Of a stretch of 32,706 nucleotides of DNA, positions 6,454 to 16,158 are shown in pieces. The notes beneath the pieces are model-generated. The model was not told the origin of the DNA. It made no database searches and saw nothing but the letters and a program-made list of their open reading frames with translations. The stretch comes from Candidatus Bathyarchaeota archaeon (lineage in GTDB: Archaea > Thermoproteota > Bathyarchaeia > TCS64 > PIYN01), in assembly GCA_003601775.1 (NCBI GenBank), contig PIYN01000015.1, positions 1-32,706 of the forward strand, in the 5' to 3' direction. The stretch's first letter is position 1. Each line of letters starts with the position of its first letter. The translations under genes and the position numbers were made by a program.

Positions 6454-7683
6454 TCATCCCCTGTAATCGGTGAGGTCGAACCTCTCAACATACTTCTCCT
6501 TGATCTCCTGAAAGGCGTCTCGGACCTTCCTCACCTCCTCCATGGGTAGACCATAGACGGAGAGTTTGATATGCCTGCTCAGCCCCCTCTGGAGGCCGAC
6601 TATACCCCTCCGGATCATCTCCTCCGCGAGAAAGAAGCCCCTCCTCCTATGGTGTTTCGATATCTCCCAGAAGACGGGCGTCTCGAAGTGGAGGAGGTGG
6701 TGCCTATGGGGCCTCTCGCCGAGGAGCTTAAGGCCTCCGATCTGCTCCATCTCCCTGATGAACCACCTGGTCTTCTCGAGTTCCTCCTCCCAGCGGCCGA
6801 CCCTCTCAGCCACGTGGGGAAAGGCGTACATGGCTGAGATGAGGGGGAGGCCCCCGATACTGCACCCGAAGAGGCTCGGCACCTTCTTGCCGAACTCCCT
6901 GCCGCTCCAATCCATCCGGAGGGAAGAAGTCTTAAAGAGCCTCTCGGACCAGTCACGGCTCGTGATTAGGAAGCCCAGGGGCCCGAGGGAGGCCATGGAT
7001 TTATGGGCGGAGACGGTGAGGAAGTCCGCCCTCATCTCGCTCATGTTCACGGGCAATACGCCGGCGGTATAGGCCGCGTTGACCATGTAGGGTATCCCAT
7101 CCTCCTCCGCCACCCTGCCGATCTCCTCCACCGGGGAGAGGTTCCCATGGTAGGGATCTACATGTGTGGCCACGAGGAGCGCCGGGAGGATCCCCTCCTC
7201 CTCCCTGATGGACTCGATACGCTTGACGTAGTCCTCCGCGGTTACCCTGTACTCGGGGTAGCCGGTGTTGGGCACCTCGACGACCCTGAGGCCGGCCATC
7301 TCCGCGGCGATGCAGGTCGTGTAGTGGCAGAGGGAGTCTACCAGGACTACCCCGCTCCTCCGCCCTGAGGCCCTGGCGAGGTCGCTTATCGTCTTCATCA
7401 CGGCGAACTGGGCCCCTCTACAGCCGAGGGTGTGCTCAGCGACCTCACCTCCGAAGAAGTGGGCGACGTCCTTGAGGAACTCCCTGACCGGGGGCCTGCC
7501 GAGGAGGCTCGACCTCCCCTCGAGGCAGTCGTGGCAGATGGCGTACCCGACCCTCAGCCACCCCTCCTCCACGATCTTCCTCTGGACCTCCCCTGGGAGG
7601 ATCCCACCGGTCATGATGGGGCTGACGATGATATGGCCCTTATACTTGTTGATCATCTGCCCGTATCTCTTCAGACCCTCCAT
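6454..7683 (-). CDS. pscS: O-phosphoseryl-tRNA:Cys-tRNA synthase (SepCysS)
   Basis: The 409-residue PLP enzyme converts phosphoserine on tRNA(Cys) to cysteine with an outside sulfur donor, the second step of the SepRS/SepCysS route known from methanogens and some other archaea. The N-terminal cysteine pair is Cys50 and Cys53 (YAICHDCLEGRSS); the third conserved cysteine is in SLFGCSIGGLPL; these carry sulfur in the family. The PLP lysine lies in LTVSAHKSMASLGP. VAHFFGGEVAEHTLGCRGAQFAVM is the family's phosphate/tRNA-handling segment. It starts at ATG 7683, one base after the lipoate ligase stop, so the two are co-translated. SepRS itself is not in the window. Pairing with lipoyl-protein genes is unusual and hints at a shared sulfur theme. 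Confidence 0.92.
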   Translation of the reverse strand: MEGLKRYGQMINKYKGHIIVSPIMTGGILPGEVQRKIVEEGWLRVGYAICHDCLEGRSSLLGRPPVREFLKDVAHFFGGEVAEHTLGCRGAQFAVMKTISDLARASGRRSGVVLVDSLCHYTTCIAAEMAGLRVVEVPNTGYPEYRVTAEDYVKRIESIREEEGILPALLVATHVDPYHGNLSPVEEIGRVAEEDGIPYMVNAAYTAGVLPVNMSEMRADFLTVSAHKSMASLGPLGFLITSRDWSERLFKTSSLRMDWSGREFGKKVPSLFGCSIGGLPLISAMYAFPHVAERVGRWEEELEKTRWFIREMEQIGGLKLLGERPHRHHLLHFETPVFWEISKHHRRRGFFLAEEMIRRGIVGLQRGLSRHIKLSVYGLPMEEVRKVRDAFQEIKEKYVERFDLTDYRG

Positions 7684-7684
7684 T

Positions 7685-8836
7685 TCATCCGTCCCGCCTA
7701 AGGGGGTTTGCGGAGGTCTGAACCGGCGGGAGCGAGGGGGGAAGGGCGTCCCTGAGCTTCAGGACGGCCCTAAGGAAGTCCTTCGGGCTCATCCCGGGGA
7801 TCTGGGCCTCGCTCTCCTTGAAGAACCTCTTGATCCTCAACTCAAGGTCGTGGGGACGGGAGAGCATCGACCCCTTCAGGGCCTCCTCCAGGCGGAGCAC
7901 CGCCTCCTCTGGTATCATGAAGAAGTCGCCCGTTATCGAGGCGTCCAGGATCTTCCATCCCTTAACCTCGGCCCTCACCCTTATGAGCTTCGTTGCCTTG
8001 TGATCCGCCTCAACTATGTATCTGTCCCCCGCGATCTTCACCGCCCGCGTGCCCTCCTCCAGTCTCCTACCCCCTCGCATCTGGAGCCACTCCTTTGAGA
8101 GGTGCTTGGGCTTGACCTCCTCCCTCCAGATCCTCCACTCCTCCTCGCTGGGCTCGCTCCTCTGGAGATCGACGCCGAGGACATGCTCGAAGGCCTCTAC
8201 AAGCAGCTTCTTCACCTCCTCCACCTCGGGGATGTATCCCAGCTCCCTCTTCAAGGAGGTGACCCATTCCCTCATGCTCTTCGCCATCTTATCCCTGAAC
8301 TTCTCGCTCGGGACCCTCAGGACCCTGGACATGGAGTCGTAGTCGAGGTCGAGGATGATGTTCCCGACGAGGATCACGGCGGAGCCCATGACCCCCGCCC
8401 CGTTCCCAGAGATCTTCCTCCCCCTCACTACGACGTCGTTGATGGGCTTGAACTCCGCGGGGAGACCCAGCTTCCTGTAGACGTAGACGGGGGCCTCAAG
8501 GAGCTTCCTGAAGAGGTCCTCGACCCTCGCCGGGAGGACGCTGCTCCCCTTCCTCGCCACAACCTGGTAGAAGACCTGATCGCCGTTGAGGTACGTCGCA
8601 CCCCCACCCTGGGACCTCCTGATGATGGGGAGCCCCTTCTCGCGGCAGTACTCCACGTCGATCTCCCTCTCCAGCTCCTGGTGGAAGCCGAGGCATACGT
8701 AGGGGGAGGCGGGCTGGCAGAGGAGGATCGTGTCCGGTGAGAGGCCACGGTCGATGGCGAGGGCCACCGCTTCATAGAAGGTCTGGGCTATGAGGGGCTC
8801 GGCCCTGCCCAGGTCTATGAGGCGCCAGCTCTCCAT
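7685..8836 (-). CDS. lplA: Lipoate-protein ligase, LplA and LplB domains fused
   Basis: The 383-residue protein attaches lipoate to a lysine of a carrier protein using ATP. Residues 1 to about 250 are the LplA catalytic domain: VCLGFHQELEREIDVEYCREKGLPIIRRSQGGGATYLNGDQVFYQV with the RRXXGGGA signature, then NDVVVRGRKISGNGAGV with the conserved Lys. The C-terminal part (about 260-360) has VKIAGDRYIVEADHKATKLIRVRAEVKGWKILDASITGDFFMIPEEAVLRLEEAL, the pattern of the LplB accessory domain. In Thermoplasma LplA and LplB are separate proteins; the fused form is known from Lpl(AB) enzymes of lipoate-binding-protein/sHdr-type clusters. It starts at ATG 8836. The target is surely the H-like protein encoded 12 bases upstream. 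Confidence 0.88.
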   Translation of the reverse strand: MESWRLIDLGRAEPLIAQTFYEAVALAIDRGLSPDTILLCQPASPYVCLGFHQELEREIDVEYCREKGLPIIRRSQGGGATYLNGDQVFYQVVARKGSSVLPARVEDLFRKLLEAPVYVYRKLGLPAEFKPINDVVVRGRKISGNGAGVMGSAVILVGNIILDLDYDSMSRVLRVPSEKFRDKMAKSMREWVTSLKRELGYIPEVEEVKKLLVEAFEHVLGVDLQRSEPSEEEWRIWREEVKPKHLSKEWLQMRGGRRLEEGTRAVKIAGDRYIVEADHKATKLIRVRAEVKGWKILDASITGDFFMIPEEAVLRLEEALKGSMLSRPHDLELRIKRFFKESEAQIPGMSPKDFLRAVLKLRDALPPSLPPVQTSANPLRRDG

Positions 8837-9826: not shown

Positions 9827-10300
9827 ATGAAAAATTTAAAGATGCAGAAGGTGCTAATATACGACCCTGACAAGTGCACTGGATGCAGATACTGTGAGAT
9901 CGCATGCGCCTATTACCACTTTAAGACTTTTAATTTTGAAAGAGCACATCTGCATGTAATATTTGATGAGGAAAAGCGTGCTTTCGAAGCGATCTATTGC
10001 CACCACTGCGATGAGCCGATATGCGCCGCCGCATGTCCAAGTGACGCGATAAGCAAGGATGAGGAAACCGGATGGGTAAGGATAAACCCCTCAGTATGTA
10101 TAGGATGCAAGACGTGCATAGTTGTCTGTCCCCTCTCAGCTCCATGGTTCAACGAGACCTTCCACGTCTCAATGAAATGTGACTTCTGTAATGGAGAACC
10201 GCAATGCGCAAGATTCTGCCCCCCACAGGCGATAAGGGTGGTAACCAGAGAGGAGGCATTAAAGTTTAGCGAAAAGAGATATTTGGAGGCTTCAACTTGA
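9827..10300 (+). CDS. Polyferredoxin with four [4Fe-4S] motifs (HycB/CooF-like)
   Basis: The 157-residue electron carrier resembles the HycB/CooF/DmsB ferredoxins that pass electrons to or from hydrogenases and molybdenum enzymes. Four cysteine groups are visible: CTGCRYCEIAC, CHHCDEPICAAAC, CIGCKTCIVVC and CDFCNGEPQCARFC, enough for four [4Fe-4S] clusters. ATG 9827 was chosen over an in-frame GTG at 9791 because GGGGGGAG stands about 10 bases before it. It is the first gene of the five-gene operon; its stop overlaps the TTG of the next gene (TTGA). Codons such as ATA, AGA and GCA are common, unlike the GC-rich flanking genes. It may replace the missing HdrC as partner of HdrB; that is inference. 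Confidence 0.88.
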   Translation: MKNLKMQKVLIYDPDKCTGCRYCEIACAYYHFKTFNFERAHLHVIFDEEKRAFEAIYCHHCDEPICAAACPSDAISKDEETGWVRINPSVCIGCKTCIVVCPLSAPWFNETFHVSMKCDFCNGEPQCARFCPPQAIRVVTREEALKFSEKRYLEAST

Positions 10301-10965
10301 GGGCGAAAAAAATAATCGAGTACATGCGGCAAGAGCTCGGTCCTGATGTACTCGTCGTCTCGGCTCCCCGTGATAGGCGAGTCTTCATAAATATAAGGGC
10401 TGAAGCACTTAGGAAAGCAGTTGAGGCATTAAAAAGGAAATATCCAGCACTGCGGTTCATGACTATCTCGACGGTGGATTGCGGATTACACTTTGAGTTT
10501 CTGCATCATTTTCACGTTGACGGAGTAGTCATCACTTTGAGAAGCGTGAAACCGAAAGAGGAGAATCTCCTAGAGTCGATTGCAGACATAGTTCCGGCGG
10601 CGAATTTCATAGAGAGGGAGATCGCTGAACTGTTCGGCATTAAGGTAATGAATCATCCTAAGATGCGAAGCCTCATATTAACTGAGGACTGGGCTGAAGA
10701 TAAGCGGCCTCTAAGAAAGCCTCTAAGAGGAATTCTTCCTCCACAAGCTAGGCGTGTGGCTGAATCCCTAATATCCATGGGCTGCGTAGCTCCTATTTCA
10801 AGGTTCATAGAGAGAAGGCGTGAAGCCGCTGGGCTTCCTAAAACTCCGCCTTTCGCATTCACAGATGAAGAGAACATGAAGGAGCTTCATGGAATCATTA
10901 AGGAAGTAAGCTTATCAGAGAAGGTTGGCTTCGACTGGGAAAAGAAGAGACTCCGATATAGGTGA
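10297..10965 (+). CDS. NuoC/HycE N-terminal-like hydrogenase subunit
   Basis: The 222-residue product is a 30-kDa/NuoC-family subunit, the part that in HycE and CooU/EchD caps the large subunit of group 4 hydrogenases and complex I. The signature is FIEREIAELFGIKVMNHPKMRSLILTEDWAEDKRPLRKPL (about residues 104-143), close to the NuoC consensus ERE...LFGI...HP.L..L.L...W...PLRK. The start is TTG 10297 within a TTGA overlap with the ferredoxin stop. About 80 residues follow the signature, with basic PPQARRVAESL and IERRREAAGLP, not expected in minimal NuoC proteins. It is separated from the large-subunit gene by hdrB, an unusual order. Confidence 0.87.
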   Translation: MRAKKIIEYMRQELGPDVLVVSAPRDRRVFINIRAEALRKAVEALKRKYPALRFMTISTVDCGLHFEFLHHFHVDGVVITLRSVKPKEENLLESIADIVPAANFIEREIAELFGIKVMNHPKMRSLILTEDWAEDKRPLRKPLRGILPPQARRVAESLISMGCVAPISRFIERRREAAGLPKTPPFAFTDEENMKELHGIIKEVSLSEKVGFDWEKKRLRYR

Positions 10966-10971
10966 AACTTC

Positions 10972-11844
10972 ATGGTTAAGTATGCTTTATTTCTTGGATG
11001 TCTGATTCCCATGCGTATGCCCAGCGTTGAGATAGCCTCTAGAAGAGTCTTCGAAAGGATAGGCTTAGAGAGTGTTGATCTTAAGGGATATACGTGCTGT
11101 CCCGAACCGGTGTTCTCCCGCCTAATTGATGAGACTGGGCAACTTGTGATTTCAGCTAGGAATCTCGCATTGGCTGAGGAACTAGGATTGGACATTATGA
11201 CTCTCTGTAATGGGTGCTACGAGACTCTTCTCGAGACAAATGAGACTCTGAAGAATAAATCTGATGAGATGCTGCGGGTCAACAGGATATTGGAGAATTA
11301 TGGAAAGAAGTATAGGGGTCTAATCAAAGTTAAGCATGCTATAGAGGTGTTATATGAGGATATCGGAATCGAGAAGATTAGGGAATGCGTGACTAAGCCC
11401 TTAAAGATCCGTGTTGCAATGCATTATGGTTGCCACCTTTACCGAGACCTCAGCGGAGATATCATGCGGAAGCCGAGGATGATGAAGGAAATTACGAGCT
11501 TAACGGGCGTTGAGATAGCTGATTATGGGCTTGAACGTTTATGCTGCGGGTATCCAAGCATGCAGGTTGATGAGGAATTCTCTCTTACACATAGGCTTCT
11601 GCCGAAGATAAAGAGAATGGTAGAGGCGGGGGCAGAGGCAGTTGTCTTAACATGCCCTGCATGTACGATCCAGTTTGAAACAGGGCAGGTTCTGCTTAGG
11701 AAGCGTGGAATCCAGTATGAGATCCCATGCATAAATATTATGGAGTTGCTTGCTCTATCCTTCGGTTTTTCCTCGAGAGACATACACTTAGAGCTCCATA
11801 GAGGACCGATTTTGCGGCTGATTAAGAAAGTGGAGGGTGATTGA
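10972..11844 (+). CDS. hdrB: HdrB-type heterodisulfide reductase subunit (two CCG domains)
   Basis: The 290-residue protein is an HdrB homologue. HdrB reduces CoM-S-S-CoB or related disulfides at two noncubane [4Fe-4S] clusters, each bound by a CCG domain. All ten cysteines are present: Cys10, Cys42-Cys43, Cys79 and Cys82 (LGCLIP, YTCCPEP, LCNGC), then Cys154, Cys191-Cys192, Cys228 and Cys231 (YGCHLYR, RLCCGYP, TCPAC). The spacing follows the HdrB pattern, so the catalytic site should be intact. It starts at ATG 10972 behind AGGTGAA. It lies inside a hydrogenase operon, between the NuoC-like and large subunit genes. HdrA and HdrC are absent from the window. The real substrate disulfide is unknown. 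Confidence 0.92.
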   Translation: MVKYALFLGCLIPMRMPSVEIASRRVFERIGLESVDLKGYTCCPEPVFSRLIDETGQLVISARNLALAEELGLDIMTLCNGCYETLLETNETLKNKSDEMLRVNRILENYGKKYRGLIKVKHAIEVLYEDIGIEKIRECVTKPLKIRVAMHYGCHLYRDLSGDIMRKPRMMKEITSLTGVEIADYGLERLCCGYPSMQVDEEFSLTHRLLPKIKRMVEAGAEAVVLTCPACTIQFETGQVLLRKRGIQYEIPCINIMELLALSFGFSSRDIHLELHRGPILRLIKKVEGD

Positions 11845-11847
11845 TAC

Positions 11848-12969
11848 TTGCCAAGAATAGTTTGCATCGGACCTTACAAGCCTCAGCTTCTCGAGCCTGA
11901 ACGCTTCCAGCTCTTCGTGGAGAACGATAAGATAATCGACGTGAATATTGAACTTGGCTATGTGCATCGGGGAGTAGAGGATCTGTTCACGAAGAGAACA
12001 TACATGCAGAATCTGGCGCTCGCGGAGCGAATATGCGGGATCTGCTCCGGCGTTCATACTCTCTGCTATGCCCAAACTGCTGAAAGTATAATGGATGTGG
12101 AGGTTCCAGATAGAGCTCGGTACCTGCGTTGCATATACATGGAGCTCGAGCGTCTGCACAGCCATTTTTTATGGTTCGGTGTTCTAGCCCATACTCTTCA
12201 CGAGCATAAAGTCTTCCTGAAGGTAATGACTGAGAGAGAACGTATTCAAGCTCTGCTTGAGTATCTAACAGGAAACAGAATACACTATCTCATTAACACG
12301 GTGGGTGGAGTTAGAAGAGATATAACGCCAAAGAAGGCTGAGAGAATACGAGACGTCCTTAAGGATATGAAGGATCTGTCAAATTATCTATTAATGCTTC
12401 TGAACAATGATGGAGTTTTTGTGGAGAAAACTGAGGGAGTAGGCGTACTTTCAAGGAGCATAGCTCTAGATGTAGGCGCCGTCGGCCCAACGCTAAGGGG
12501 CTCGGGTGTGAAGAGCGACATACGCAGGGATGATTCATACGCAGCATATGGGGAGATAGACTTCGAAATAACCACGGAGGATGAAGGCGACGTTTTAGCT
12601 AGAACCCGCGTTAGGGCTAGGGAAACACTTGAAAGTATAAGAATAATTGAGCAGTCGCTTCAGAACCTTCCTGAAGGAGAGATCTCCGTTAAGCCCGGAG
12701 AACCCCTCGAGAAGGAGGAGATCGGAAGGGCGGAGGCCCCGCGTGGAGAACTCATCTATTACATTCGATCTAATGGCACGAATATTCCAGAAAGAGTTAA
12801 GATCAGAACTCCATCCTTCGCGAACGTCTTCGCATTAACCGAGATGCTACGCGGAGACAACATTCAGAACGCTAGGCTGATAATCGAGAGCATCGATCCC
12901 TGCTTCGCCTGTACGGACCGTATCACAATCATCGATAGGAATACTGGCAGGAGGCAAATTTGGGGTTGA
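11848..12969 (+). CDS. [NiFe]-hydrogenase large subunit, group 4 (HycE/EchE-like)
   Basis: The 373-residue protein is the catalytic subunit that splits or makes H2. Both nickel-binding motifs are complete: L1, ERICGICSGVH with Cys63 and Cys66, and L2, DPCFACTDR with Cys352 and Cys355. The pair separates it from NuoD of complex I, which lacks these cysteines. The L2 form DPCXXCTDR is that of HycE, EchE and CooH, so it belongs to group 4. The segment YMELERLHSHFLWFGVLAH is typical of the family. Only 18 residues follow L2. The start is TTG 11848 after GGAGGGTGA. It lacks the N-terminal NuoC part of HycE, which is a separate gene here. Confidence 0.93.
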   Translation: MPRIVCIGPYKPQLLEPERFQLFVENDKIIDVNIELGYVHRGVEDLFTKRTYMQNLALAERICGICSGVHTLCYAQTAESIMDVEVPDRARYLRCIYMELERLHSHFLWFGVLAHTLHEHKVFLKVMTERERIQALLEYLTGNRIHYLINTVGGVRRDITPKKAERIRDVLKDMKDLSNYLLMLLNNDGVFVEKTEGVGVLSRSIALDVGAVGPTLRGSGVKSDIRRDDSYAAYGEIDFEITTEDEGDVLARTRVRARETLESIRIIEQSLQNLPEGEISVKPGEPLEKEEIGRAEAPRGELIYYIRSNGTNIPERVKIRTPSFANVFALTEMLRGDNIQNARLIIESIDPCFACTDRITIIDRNTGRRQIWG

Positions 12970-12970
12970 T

Positions 12971-13876
12971 GTGAAAATGGCTGAAACGAAGATTGCTGTT
13001 TACCGTTTCATGTCAGCCGGATGTAACGGATGCGACGTACAGATACTTGAATGCCTTGTTCCACGATATAAGCTTGGAGAACTAGGCATCGAAGTGGTCT
13101 TCACGCCTGAAGAGGCGAATGTTCTGGCCGTTACTGGAAGCTTAAACATCAAGGGAGCTGAGGAGCTGAAGAAGGCTTACGAGAAGCTTAAACCTCCAAG
13201 AATCGTTGTCGCCATTGGAAACTGCGCAACTACAAGAGGTATCTTTAGCGAGGGATACCCGATAGTCGGTCCTCCAGACCGCTTAATCCCAGTGAGCCTT
13301 TACATTCCAGGCTGCCCACCTCGTCCCCAAGCAATAGTATCAGCGATAGCAAAAGTTCTAGGAGCACATTTAGACGAGGAAGAGGATTATTGGAAGGCTC
13401 CAGAGGGTTTCAGGGGCAGACATGAATTTGATGTGGAAAAATGTATGGCTTGCGGTGCATGTGCACAGGTCTGTAGTTCAGATGCAATTGAAGTGAGCGA
13501 TAGTGATGGGAAACGTTTAATAAGGATTAATTATGCACGATGCACTTTCTGCGGATTCTGCCAAGACGAGTGTCCAACGCAGGCTATAAGGCTGACGAGG
13601 GAGTATCACCTCTCAACGGATGATAAGGAGACAGCATATGTAACGAATGAAGTGGAGATGCTTAGGTGCCACATCTGCGGATCGTATTATGTTCCTTCAG
13701 AGCAGATAAAATGGGCCATCGGTCGTATAATGGATAAAGTCGCCGCGTATAGGGATCTGCGTAAGAGACTAGAAGATGCCATGCAGATCTGTCCTACGTG
13801 CCGCAGAAAGATAGGCAATATAGAAAATGCGAAGAGACTTCTTGCCAACCTCACAATTAAGACCCGAAAATCTTAA
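12971..13876 (+). CDS. [NiFe]-hydrogenase small subunit fused to HycF-like ferredoxin
   Basis: The 301-residue protein joins two subunits normally encoded apart. Residues 1 to about 135 are the small subunit (HycG/NuoB type) holding the proximal cluster: SAGCNGCDVQ (Cys18, Cys21), GNCATTRG and PGCPPRP. From about 145 to 215 follow two [4Fe-4S] motifs, CMACGACAQVC and CTFCGFCQDEC, as in HycF/EchF/NuoI. The tail has two CXXC pairs (RCHICGSYYVPSEQIKWAIGRIM and ICPTCRRKIG), as in the C-terminus of HycF/HyfH. The start may be GTG 12971 or ATG 12977. It is the last gene of the operon and ends 6 bases before an opposite-strand gene, so no membrane subunit follows. Confidence 0.92.
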   Translation: MKMAETKIAVYRFMSAGCNGCDVQILECLVPRYKLGELGIEVVFTPEEANVLAVTGSLNIKGAEELKKAYEKLKPPRIVVAIGNCATTRGIFSEGYPIVGPPDRLIPVSLYIPGCPPRPQAIVSAIAKVLGAHLDEEEDYWKAPEGFRGRHEFDVEKCMACGACAQVCSSDAIEVSDSDGKRLIRINYARCTFCGFCQDECPTQAIRLTREYHLSTDDKETAYVTNEVEMLRCHICGSYYVPSEQIKWAIGRIMDKVAAYRDLRKRLEDAMQICPTCRRKIGNIENAKRLLANLTIKTRKS

Positions 13877-13882
13877 GATATG

Positions 13883-14104
13883 TTATAGTGGCTCATCCTC
13901 CCTAAGGCCTCTGTGAGCTTCGTTCCACTCTCTCAGGGCGAGGACCTTCCCCAGATACCAGTAGCCCTCCTCCCTCAGCTCCCTCCTCGTCGGCAGCGTC
14001 GGGTTCTCCTCATGGCTTCGGTGGAAGTCCTCGGCCCAGAGCTGATAGGCGATCTCCCAGGCCCTCTCCCGGATAGCAGGCCAGAACCTACCCCTCCTCG
14101 GCAT
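13883..14104 (-). CDS. Small hypothetical protein, 73 aa
   Basis: The product is rich in Arg, Glu and Trp (MPRRGRFWPAIRERAWEIAYQLWAEDFHRSHEE...EEGYWYLGKVLALREWNEAHRGLRED) and likely helical and soluble. ATG 14104 was chosen because AAGGAGGCGGGG lies 5-16 bases upstream; an upstream extension of 18 residues is possible but less likely. I recognise no family. The codon use is GC-rich, like the main genome and unlike the hydrogenase island that stops 6 bases from its stop codon; it therefore marks the right border of the island. Confidence 0.6.
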   Translation of the reverse strand: MPRRGRFWPAIRERAWEIAYQLWAEDFHRSHEENPTLPTRRELREEGYWYLGKVLALREWNEAHRGLREDEPL

Positions 14105-14347
14105 TCTTCCCCGCCTCCTTGCTAAAAACCCTTGCTGAAATAAAGAATATAGTTGCAATAACGGCGGAACATATACTATAGATCCATTGGTATGTGATTC
14201 AATGCCGAGGGTGAAGGTAAGAAACTTCGCAAGCTTGCGCTAGTTATTTGGTTATTCTCCTTCACTCCTTTAAAAAATATCCCCAACTGAAGCCGCCGGA
14301 TAAGTTAATTAGAGTGTTTCAACTCATAAAGGGGGGAGGGGTCTGGG
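14105..14347. other. A/T-rich intergenic region before aIF5B
   Basis: The region is richer in A/T than the genes on its right. It holds the short MoaD-like fragment (14202-14243) with a TATA-like ATATACTATA (14171-14180), a 12-bp palindrome CGCAAGCTTGCG (14228-14239) inside that fragment, a likely aIF5B promoter (ATAAGTTAATTAG near 14300) and its ribosome binding site (AAGGGGGGAGGGG, 14328-14340). I see no tRNA or other RNA gene. Confidence 0.45.
14202..14243 (+). pseudogene. MoaD/ThiS-like gene fragment (first 13 codons)
   Basis: The ATG at 14202 opens MPRVKVRNFASLR followed by TAG. This looks like the beginning of archaeal MoaD-family ubiquitin-like proteins (SAMPs), which often start with VKVRFFASLRE. 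No later part of such a protein, and no C-terminal GG, is found in any frame before aIF5B. TATA-like ATATACTATA about 27 bases upstream suggests an intact promoter. The likeliest reading is the stump of a deleted gene at the island border. With only 13 residues, chance resemblance is possible. Confidence 0.3.
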
Positions 14348-14353
14348 TTGCCG

Positions 14354-16158
14354 ATGAGACAGCCGATCGTCTGTATGCTCGGGCATGATCCAGCGGAGTG
14401 AGAGCTCCCTGGATGCCAATCGACACGGGGAAGACGACGCTGCTGGATAAGATCAGGGGAACCGCCGTCCAGCTGAGGGAGGCAGGGGGCCTTACCCAGC
14501 AGATCGGGGCGAGCTTCTTCCCCCTCGAGACCCTGGTGGAGATCTGTAGGTCGATTATAAAGGGCTTCAGGGCGGAGATCAAGATCCCCGGCCTCCTCGT
14601 CATAGATACCCCTGGACATGAGGCCTTCGCCAACCTCAGGAAGAGGGGGGGCTCCGTCGCGGATATGGCGATCCTCGTCATCGACGTGATCCGTGGGTTC
14701 GAGCCCCAGACCTACGAGTCCCTGGAGATCCTCAGGGCGAGGAGGACGCCCTTCCTCGTCGCCGCGAACAAGATCGACCTCATCCCCGGGTGGCGTGCCC
14801 ATCCCAACGCCCTCTTCCTTGAATCCTATCGACGCCAGGACCCGGGGGTCCGGGAGGACCTCGATAGGAGGGTCTACGATATCATGGGGATCTTCTCCCG
14901 CCTCGGCTTCAGGGCCGACAGGTTCGACAGGGTCAGGGACTTCACCAAGACGATCGCCATCGTCCCGGTGAGCGCCAAGACGGGGGAGGGGGTGGCCGAG
15001 CTCCTCGCCGTCCTCATAGGGTTGACACAGCAGTACCTGAGGGAGAAGCTCGAGGTGGGCCTCGGACCTGCGAGGGGGACGGTCCTGGAGGTGAAGGAGG
15101 AGGTGGGCCTCGGGACGACTCTGAATGTGGTCATCTACGACGGCGTCCTGAGGCGGGATGACACGATCGTCGTCGGCGGGAAGGAGCGGCCCATCGTCAC
15201 GAAGATCAGGGCGCTCCTCATGCCCCAGCCCCTCGATGAGATCAGGGACCCGAGGAAGCGCTTCATCTCCGTCGAGGAGGTCCCGGCCGCGGCGGGGGTG
15301 AAGATCGTCGCACCGGATCTGGAGGACGCCGTGGCGGGGGCGCCCCTCATCGCCCTCCCTCCCGACGGGGACGTGGAGAAGGCCGTCGAGGAGGTCTCCT
15401 CAGAGGTCGATAGAGTCCGGGTCGCGACGGATAAGTTGGGGGTGGTCCTCAAGACGGATACGCTGGGTTCCCTTGAGGCTATGACGGAGAGCCTGAGGAG
15501 GAGGGGGGTTCCCATCCGGTTCGCGGACTTCGGGGACGTCTCCCACAGGGACGTCATGGAGGCCCTGGCCGTGAAGATGGGGGAGCCCCTCTACGCCGTC
15601 ATCCTCGCCTTCAACGTCAAGGTCCTGCCGGATGCCGAGAGGGAGGCAGAGGAGTACGGCATCCCAATCTTCCGGGGAGATATCATCTACAACGTGATGG
15701 ACGACTACGTCAAGTGGATGGAGGCGGAGAGGGAGAGGAGGGCTCGGAGGGAGTTCGAGTCTCTTATGAAGCCGGGGAAGATCCAGGTCCTCCCCGGCTA
15801 CGTCTTCAGGAGGTCGAAGCCCGCGATCTTTGGCGTCAAGGTCTTGGCCGGGGAGATCAGGCCGGGATATGAGATGATCAGGGAGGACGGGAAGCAGCTC
15901 GGGAAGATCGGTCAGATCCAGGAGTCCGGGGAGAGTCTCTCCCTCGCCTCCGAGGGGAGCGAGGTCGCCGTCTCGATGCCGAGGGCCGTCTTCGAGAGAA
16001 ATATTAAAGAGGGGGATATCCTCTATGTAGATGTCCCCGAGAGGCACGCCAAGATCCTCCTGGAGAAGTACTCATCCAGGCTCTCCGAGGGGGGCTTGGA
16101 GGCCTTGAGGGAGCTCATAGAGATAAAGAGGAGGAGTAACCCCCTCTGGGCGGCGTAG
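14354..16158 (+). CDS. infB: Translation initiation factor aIF5B/IF2, interrupted by a 32-nt intron
   Basis: aIF5B is the GTPase that promotes ribosomal subunit joining. Exon 1 (14354-14387) encodes MRQPIVCMLGH plus one base; exon 2 (14420-16158) continues VDTGKTTLLDKIRGTAVQLREAGGLTQQIGASFFP. Joined, they give 590 residues, a normal archaeal length, with G1 GHVDTGKT (the eIF5B form), G3 DTPGHEAF, G4 NKID and G5 SAK. Domain 2 follows (ARGTVLEVKEEVGLGTTLNVVIYDGVLRRDDTIVVGG), domain 3 (KADTLGSLEA-like KTDTLGSLEAM) and domain 4 (VFRRSKPAIFGVKVLAGEIRPG). Without splicing, exon 1 stops at TGA 14399. A start at GTG 14398 would lose the first P-loop glycine. A TTG at 14348 nearer the ribosome binding site is an alternative start. 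eS6 follows 12 bases later. Confidence 0.93.
14388..14419 (+). other. Putative archaeal pre-mRNA intron (32 nt) in aIF5B
   Basis: Removing these 32 bases restores the frame and the codons for GHVDTGKT. The RNA folds as a canonical bulge-helix-bulge: outer helix 14379-14381 with 14421-14423 (TCG/CGA), central 4-bp helix 14382-14385 with 14414-14417 (GGCA/TGCC), 5' bulge 14386-14388 (TGA), 3' bulge 14418-14420 (AAT), inner helix 14389-14393 with 14409-14413 (TCCAG/CTGGA), then a bulged C and GGAG/CTCC closing a 6-base loop. The splicing endonuclease cuts after the second base of each 3-base bulge; that gives TG|A and AA|T, exactly this interval. Structure and reading frame therefore agree independently. 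Confidence 0.88.

Follow-up and report, generated by a model that had tools for sequence, protein, structure and literature searches.

How can the archaeal translation GTPase aIF5B be made from a gene whose reading frame is broken inside the P-loop? The gene lies on the + strand of the window, by which we mean the whole 32,706-nucleotide stretch of DNA analysed, and is followed by the gene for ribosomal protein S6e. The window comes from a 1.53-Mb Bathyarchaeia MAG that is 92.7% complete and consists of 47 contigs. No second infB, a possibility raised by an earlier note on this DNA, was found in that genome, and the gene is single copy.

The frame break and the fold of the insert

Read unspliced from ATG 14354, the protein runs MRQPIVCMLGHDPAE and then reaches TGA 14399-14401, and the remainder of aIF5B lies in a different frame, from 14420 on. 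The earlier note had seen this break and had placed the stop directly after MRQPIVCMLGH; the break is there, but the residues DPAE come before the stop. Deleting 14388-14419 (32 nt) yields GHVDTGKT, as the note had claimed, and an uninterrupted aIF5B of 590 aa from ATG 14354. The best solved relative of the spliced protein is PDB 5fg3, with a whole-length alignment (E = 1e-204). Translation probably starts at TTG 14348 (MPMRQP...) and not at ATG 14354, because relatives begin M-P-x-R-Q-P; their starts read ATG/TTG-CCN-NTN-AGA, in register with TTG 14348. Directly upstream of infB, the window carries genes for NiFe-hydrogenase/complex-I-like large and small subunits and for a CCG-domain protein (10297-13876). 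Elsewhere, on the opposite strand (6454-8836), a SepSecS/class-V aminotransferase-like gene sits beside a lipoate ligase-like gene.

Features of the aIF5B locus, in window coordinates
Feature	Position	Strand	Remarks
Shine-Dalgarno-like GGAGG	14335..14339	+	8 nt before TTG 14348; read from sequence
Exon 1 of aIF5B	14348..14387	+	40 nt; MPMRQPIVCMLGH plus first base of Val codon; probable TTG start
Outer helix, 5' strand UCG	14379..14381	+	partner CGA 14421-14423
Central 4-bp helix, 5' strand GGCA	14382..14385	+	exonic; paired in 10/10 genomes
5' bulge UGA	14386..14388	+	predicted cut UG|A
BHB intron (predicted)	14388..14419	+	32 nt, ATCCAGCGGAGTGAGAGCTCCCTGGATGCCAA; frame restoration, fold, ten same-site introns with compensatory changes
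Intron stem-loop	14389..14413	+	UCCAG/CUGGA, bulged C14394, GGAGU/GCUCC, loop GAGA
Central 4-bp helix, 3' strand UGCC	14414..14417	+	intronic; partner GGCA 14382-14385
3' bulge AAU	14418..14420	+	predicted cut AA|U
Exon 2 of aIF5B	14420..16158	+	remaining P-loop to stop TAG; PDB 5fg3 match
Outer helix, 3' strand CGA	14421..14423	+	partner UCG 14379-14381

We consider it almost certain that 14388-14419 is an archaeal bulge-helix-bulge (BHB) pre-mRNA intron, which would be cut by EndA, joined by RtcB and leave as a 32-nt RNA. The aIF5B transcript would fold over the break into a helix-bulge-helix-bulge-helix, and the tRNA-splicing endonuclease, a hetero-oligomer of alpha and beta subunits, would cut each 3-nt bulge after its second base. 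RtcB would then join 14387 to 14420 to give GHVDTGKT, and the intron would be released in linear or circular form. We infer these steps of cleavage, ligation and release from sequence; the peptide across the predicted junction would read QPIVCMLGHVDTGK.

The BHB elements between 14379 and 14423, drawn in the same way in the earlier note, form the minimum-free-energy fold of 14370-14432 (-25.3 kcal/mol, z = -1.9) and pass a strict BHB test (outer helix of at least 3 bp, bulge of 3 nt, central helix of 4 bp, bulge of 3 nt, inner helix of at least 4 bp). Taken singly, such a motif proves little, because the strict scan finds 87 motifs by chance on both strands of the GC-rich 32.7-kb window, 17 of them of the stronger class, and because the target admits another register, 14389-14418 (30 nt), which leaves the frame broken. 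The assertion that structure and frame agree independently was thus too strong for one sequence; a BHB in a single sequence is weak evidence by itself, and the comparison between genomes decides. Searched with Rfam models, 13900-14900 shows nothing at E<1, neither a group I/II intron nor another known RNA element.

The window's genome and most of its intron-bearing relatives encode two EndA-type paralogues, EndA alpha and EndA beta. EndA alpha keeps the residues VY..GPG..HAP...VRK, which we read as the catalytic Tyr/His/Lys, and EndA beta is without the H and the K. The EndA alpha of genome G001 matches PDB 3p1z_B (E = 2.5e-43), which we take to be an Aeropyrum-type EndA alpha; aligned to the G001 protein by eye, the alpha of the window's genome carries the same Y/H/K motif. 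Judged from these residues, its splicing endonuclease is of the hetero-oligomeric type. The RtcB ligase is encoded in the window's genome as well.

Predicted introns at two sites of the G domain

A DNA pattern for the P-loop site (GGNCAY, 20-50 free bases, TGNC, two bases, THGAYNNNGGNAARAC) matched 10 of 257 Bathyarchaeia genomes, always in aIF5B, and its reversed form matched none. The bearers of this phase-1 intron fall into four families: f1 (the window's genome), f2 (n=4), f14 (n=1) and f18 (n=4). No match was seen among ~323 other Thermoproteota from an even sample of 398. The intron thus occupies the same exact position in nine genomes besides the window's, with a length of 31 or 32 nt, and the ends given in the earlier note hold. 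When the ten introns are aligned (alignment A2), standard pairs fill 96.4% of pair cells, and compensatory changes, which the note had expected of relatives, occur in 7/10 intron-stem pairs. Double-change cells number 21, as opposed to 6.9 in shuffled and 0-5 in slid controls, and pairing falls to 28-43% when partners are slid by 1-3 columns. RNAalifold finds the same structure unaided.

The cut itself is checked independently, at the level of single bases, by the f14 and f18 bearers: their final exon-1 base is A rather than G, so that the predicted junction codon is ATC (Ile) and the motif GHID, and GHID is what intronless f18 relatives encode. All ten phase-1 bearers use the junction codons GGG CAT RTC GAY, compared with 1 of ~69 contiguous genes, a bias that constraint on the exon strands of the helices would produce.

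In family f16 of the Bathyarchaeia, each of the seven genomes that yielded the gene has a P-loop intron one base upstream, in phase 0 (CAT|GTA); its length is 35, 36 or 37 nt. The P-loop pattern missed these introns; they were exposed by translating all fetched aIF5B loci. In two further f16 genomes, G087 (96% complete) and G088 (90% complete), an N-terminal query gave no aIF5B match, perhaps because the contig was not sampled or because the gene is broken further.

The second site is found immediately ahead of TQHIG (switch I, G2 motif). A pattern built from its flanking codons detected introns in 29 of the 398 sampled Thermoproteota (families f30, f38, f49, f54, f55 and f56), and three further Bathyarchaeia (G033, G083, G251) bring the total to 32 genomes, which include Nezhaarchaeota and Methanomethylicota; like the P-loop pattern, it misses introns that deviate from it. 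These introns are 19-33 nt long. Named bearers are Nezhaarchaeota WYZ-LMO8 (L017), Methanomethylicota SJ3.Bin21 (L016) and Thermoprotei B19_G17 (L018), with the same inserts as G345, G410 and G444, respectively. The f30 genomes G268, G275, G316, G400 and G415 gave no match to the switch-I pattern. Three matches were set aside: G131 and G132 have intact genes with the match farther downstream, and that in G359 is a chance match.

Here the exon strands of the helix are the codons GTTGGG...CCCAAC. Canonical cutting regains RE.G..TQHI in 30/30 switch-I genes examined, and the spliced junction is predicted to be GGGGCCATG joined to ACCCA. Covariation is again present: 95.8% of cells are paired, double-change cells number 81 compared with 24.5 after shuffling, and both sides have changed in 3/4 central-helix pairs. 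The shortest candidate, the 19-nt TTCCTTTGAAGGATCCCAG of G083 (L195), is to our knowledge among the smallest BHB introns known.

The aIF5B intron is therefore not an oddity of one genome: 49 sampled genomes carry it at two places in the G domain (10 + 7 in the P-loop, 32 at switch I), and its removal regains the conserved protein in 49/49 genes. At the frame-restoring cut, 45/49 pass the relaxed and 41/49 the strict BHB test; among shuffled introns, 2.0% (relaxed) and 0.2% (strict) satisfy the corresponding criteria for the central and inner helix only, and none pass when an intron of the same length is slid by 1-3 bases. The weak spots are G046, G114 and G086, whose outer helix is weak in the canonical register, and G033, whose inner stem is imperfect. 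Together these results suggest that mRNA introns have entered aIF5B repeatedly in archaea.

Gain, loss and possible function

A tree of 87 aIF5B proteins, made by a quick maximum-likelihood method from the downstream part only and with support values of the quick kind, requires ~7-8 changes for the phase-1 P-loop introns, 1 for f16 and 3 for switch I. The phase-1 introns are scattered over this tree, which leaves the numbers of gains and losses uncertain. The f1, f2 and f18 introns have the loop letters AGT.A...GCT in common, which the motif does not require; we infer either one old gain followed by many losses, or some exchange. The pair formed by G116, which has the intron, and its sister G117, which has none, points to recent turnover, and the introns of f16 and of switch I seem to have been gained separately. 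Our reading is that aIF5B gained introns at least 4-6 times, on a tree that alone cannot separate gain from loss. Most likely, the introns are tolerated insertions in the G-domain motifs, recurrently gained and often lost. The exon halves of the helices derive from strongly conserved protein motifs, and these sites can therefore hold a BHB without any change to the protein.

It is rather unlikely, but conceivable, that a genuine BHB intron is kept since its splicing regulates aIF5B, for example by feedback from initiating ribosomes that melt the motif. Exon 1 is only ~40 nt long, so that a ribosome at initiation sits beside the motif, the 5' end is also close to the switch-I introns, and the intron is present in every f16 genome where the gene was found, in 6/6 sampled f54 and in 17/22 sampled f30 genomes. 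Against such a role, close relatives have intronless genes (G117 beside G116), and no conserved regulatory sequence was identified beyond the BHB motif. In its most specific form, which we think improbable, splicing by EndA and RtcB would compete with a ribosome initiated ~40 nt upstream and thereby act as a feedback valve on the initiation factor, and the repeated gains in G1 and G2 would reflect selection for this valve.

Much less probable is a programmed ribosomal frameshift or bypass, in which translation jumps over the stretch on an uncut RNA. Bypassing is known in phage T4 gene 60, and the hairpin at the break could in principle support it. Programmed frameshifting is excluded because the inserts, 19-37 nt long across the 49 genes, span all three classes modulo 3 and give no constant shift. 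Furthermore, each take-off and landing point would coincide with the cut rule of the endonuclease, most inserts contain in-frame stops, and the pairing between exon and intron is conserved.

Likewise, we give very little credence to a two-part gene in which a shorter aIF5B is read from a start codon that lies within the insert, either GTG 14398 or ATG 14413. All ten phase-1 introns do have ATG or GTG followed by CCA near their 3' end, in frame with exon 2 (14413-14415 in the window), and this codon could act as an internal start. It is, however, probably forced by base pairing: the TG and CC of (A/G)TGCC are dictated by pairing with the exon GGCA, and the A/G by the next pair. No such conserved codon is present in the f16 or switch-I introns. 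The shorter protein would have neither the first beta strand nor the P-loop residues GH, and at switch I an internal start would cost it the entire P-loop.

A pseudogene or a sequencing or assembly error, the latter already considered in the earlier note, could be suspected in a draft MAG in 47 contigs, but has next to no chance of being right and is refuted by the same insert, diverged and covarying, in independently assembled genomes, and the single-copy gene is otherwise intact over ~590 codons.

Relation to known introns and inteins

An intron in aIF5B that is placed within GTPase motifs, occurs in many lineages of Thermoproteota and was gained several times and lost many times offers a comparative system for the origin, spread and persistence of mRNA introns in archaea, where transcription and translation are coupled. 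There is a practical side as well: infB is a common marker gene and is likely misread as truncated or frameshifted in intron-bearing genomes. Methanomethylicia include cultured isolates, among them Methanosuratincola petrocarbonis (PMC12244365), and would allow a direct test of splicing should the switch-I intron be present in their infB.

The P-loop is also the site of inteins in IF2/aIF5B. These are long in-frame insertions that are spliced after translation, at GK|T, whereas the aIF5B intron is 32 nt long, breaks the frame and lies at GH|VD. We rejected an intein for the window's gene, since inteins add 100+ aa in frame and carry splicing motifs. In a Pacearchaeota locus (L038, ~2760-2910), an intein-like sequence in aIF5B ends in VIVHN at GK|T, within a few codons of where the intron lies.

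BHB introns of archaeal tRNA and rRNA share with those of aIF5B the motif and the predicted enzymes (EndA and RtcB). They differ in their host: in aIF5B this is an mRNA, and the exon strands of the helix are codons of conserved protein motifs. HVO_1309 of Haloferax volcanii has a BHB in an mRNA as well, as a 5'UTR intron that is cut by the splicing endonuclease in vitro (PMC7714728); it lies outside coding sequence and in another phylum, and its cleavage has been demonstrated, while the cut in aIF5B is predicted.

The closest parallel is cbf5, whose pre-mRNA intron was reportedly described in Watanabe 2002. It is found in Desulfurococcales and Sulfolobales (Yokobori 2009, PMC2738675), its splicing has been linked to the hetero-oligomeric EndA (PMC2738675), and according to PMC7714728 and PMC4810243 no other gene is known to have BHB introns in its coding sequence. 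The open full-text literature searched, including PMC2738675, PMC7714728, PMC12397907, PMC13149111 and PMC4810243, yielded no report of an aIF5B intron, in agreement with the earlier note, and an earlier report is possible in subscription papers or preprints. In both genes a BHB lies within protein-coding sequence, each bulge has its predicted cut after base 2, the endonuclease is hetero-oligomeric and the intron has been lost in particular lineages. The two differ in protein and host, a translation GTPase compared with a pseudouridine synthase, in different classes of archaea. The aIF5B motifs are mostly canonical and not relaxed, and the gene has two or three separate positions, with introns of 19-37 nt. 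In the literature searched, aIF5B would thus be the second protein-coding gene with BHB introns after cbf5, and one that is universal and essential.
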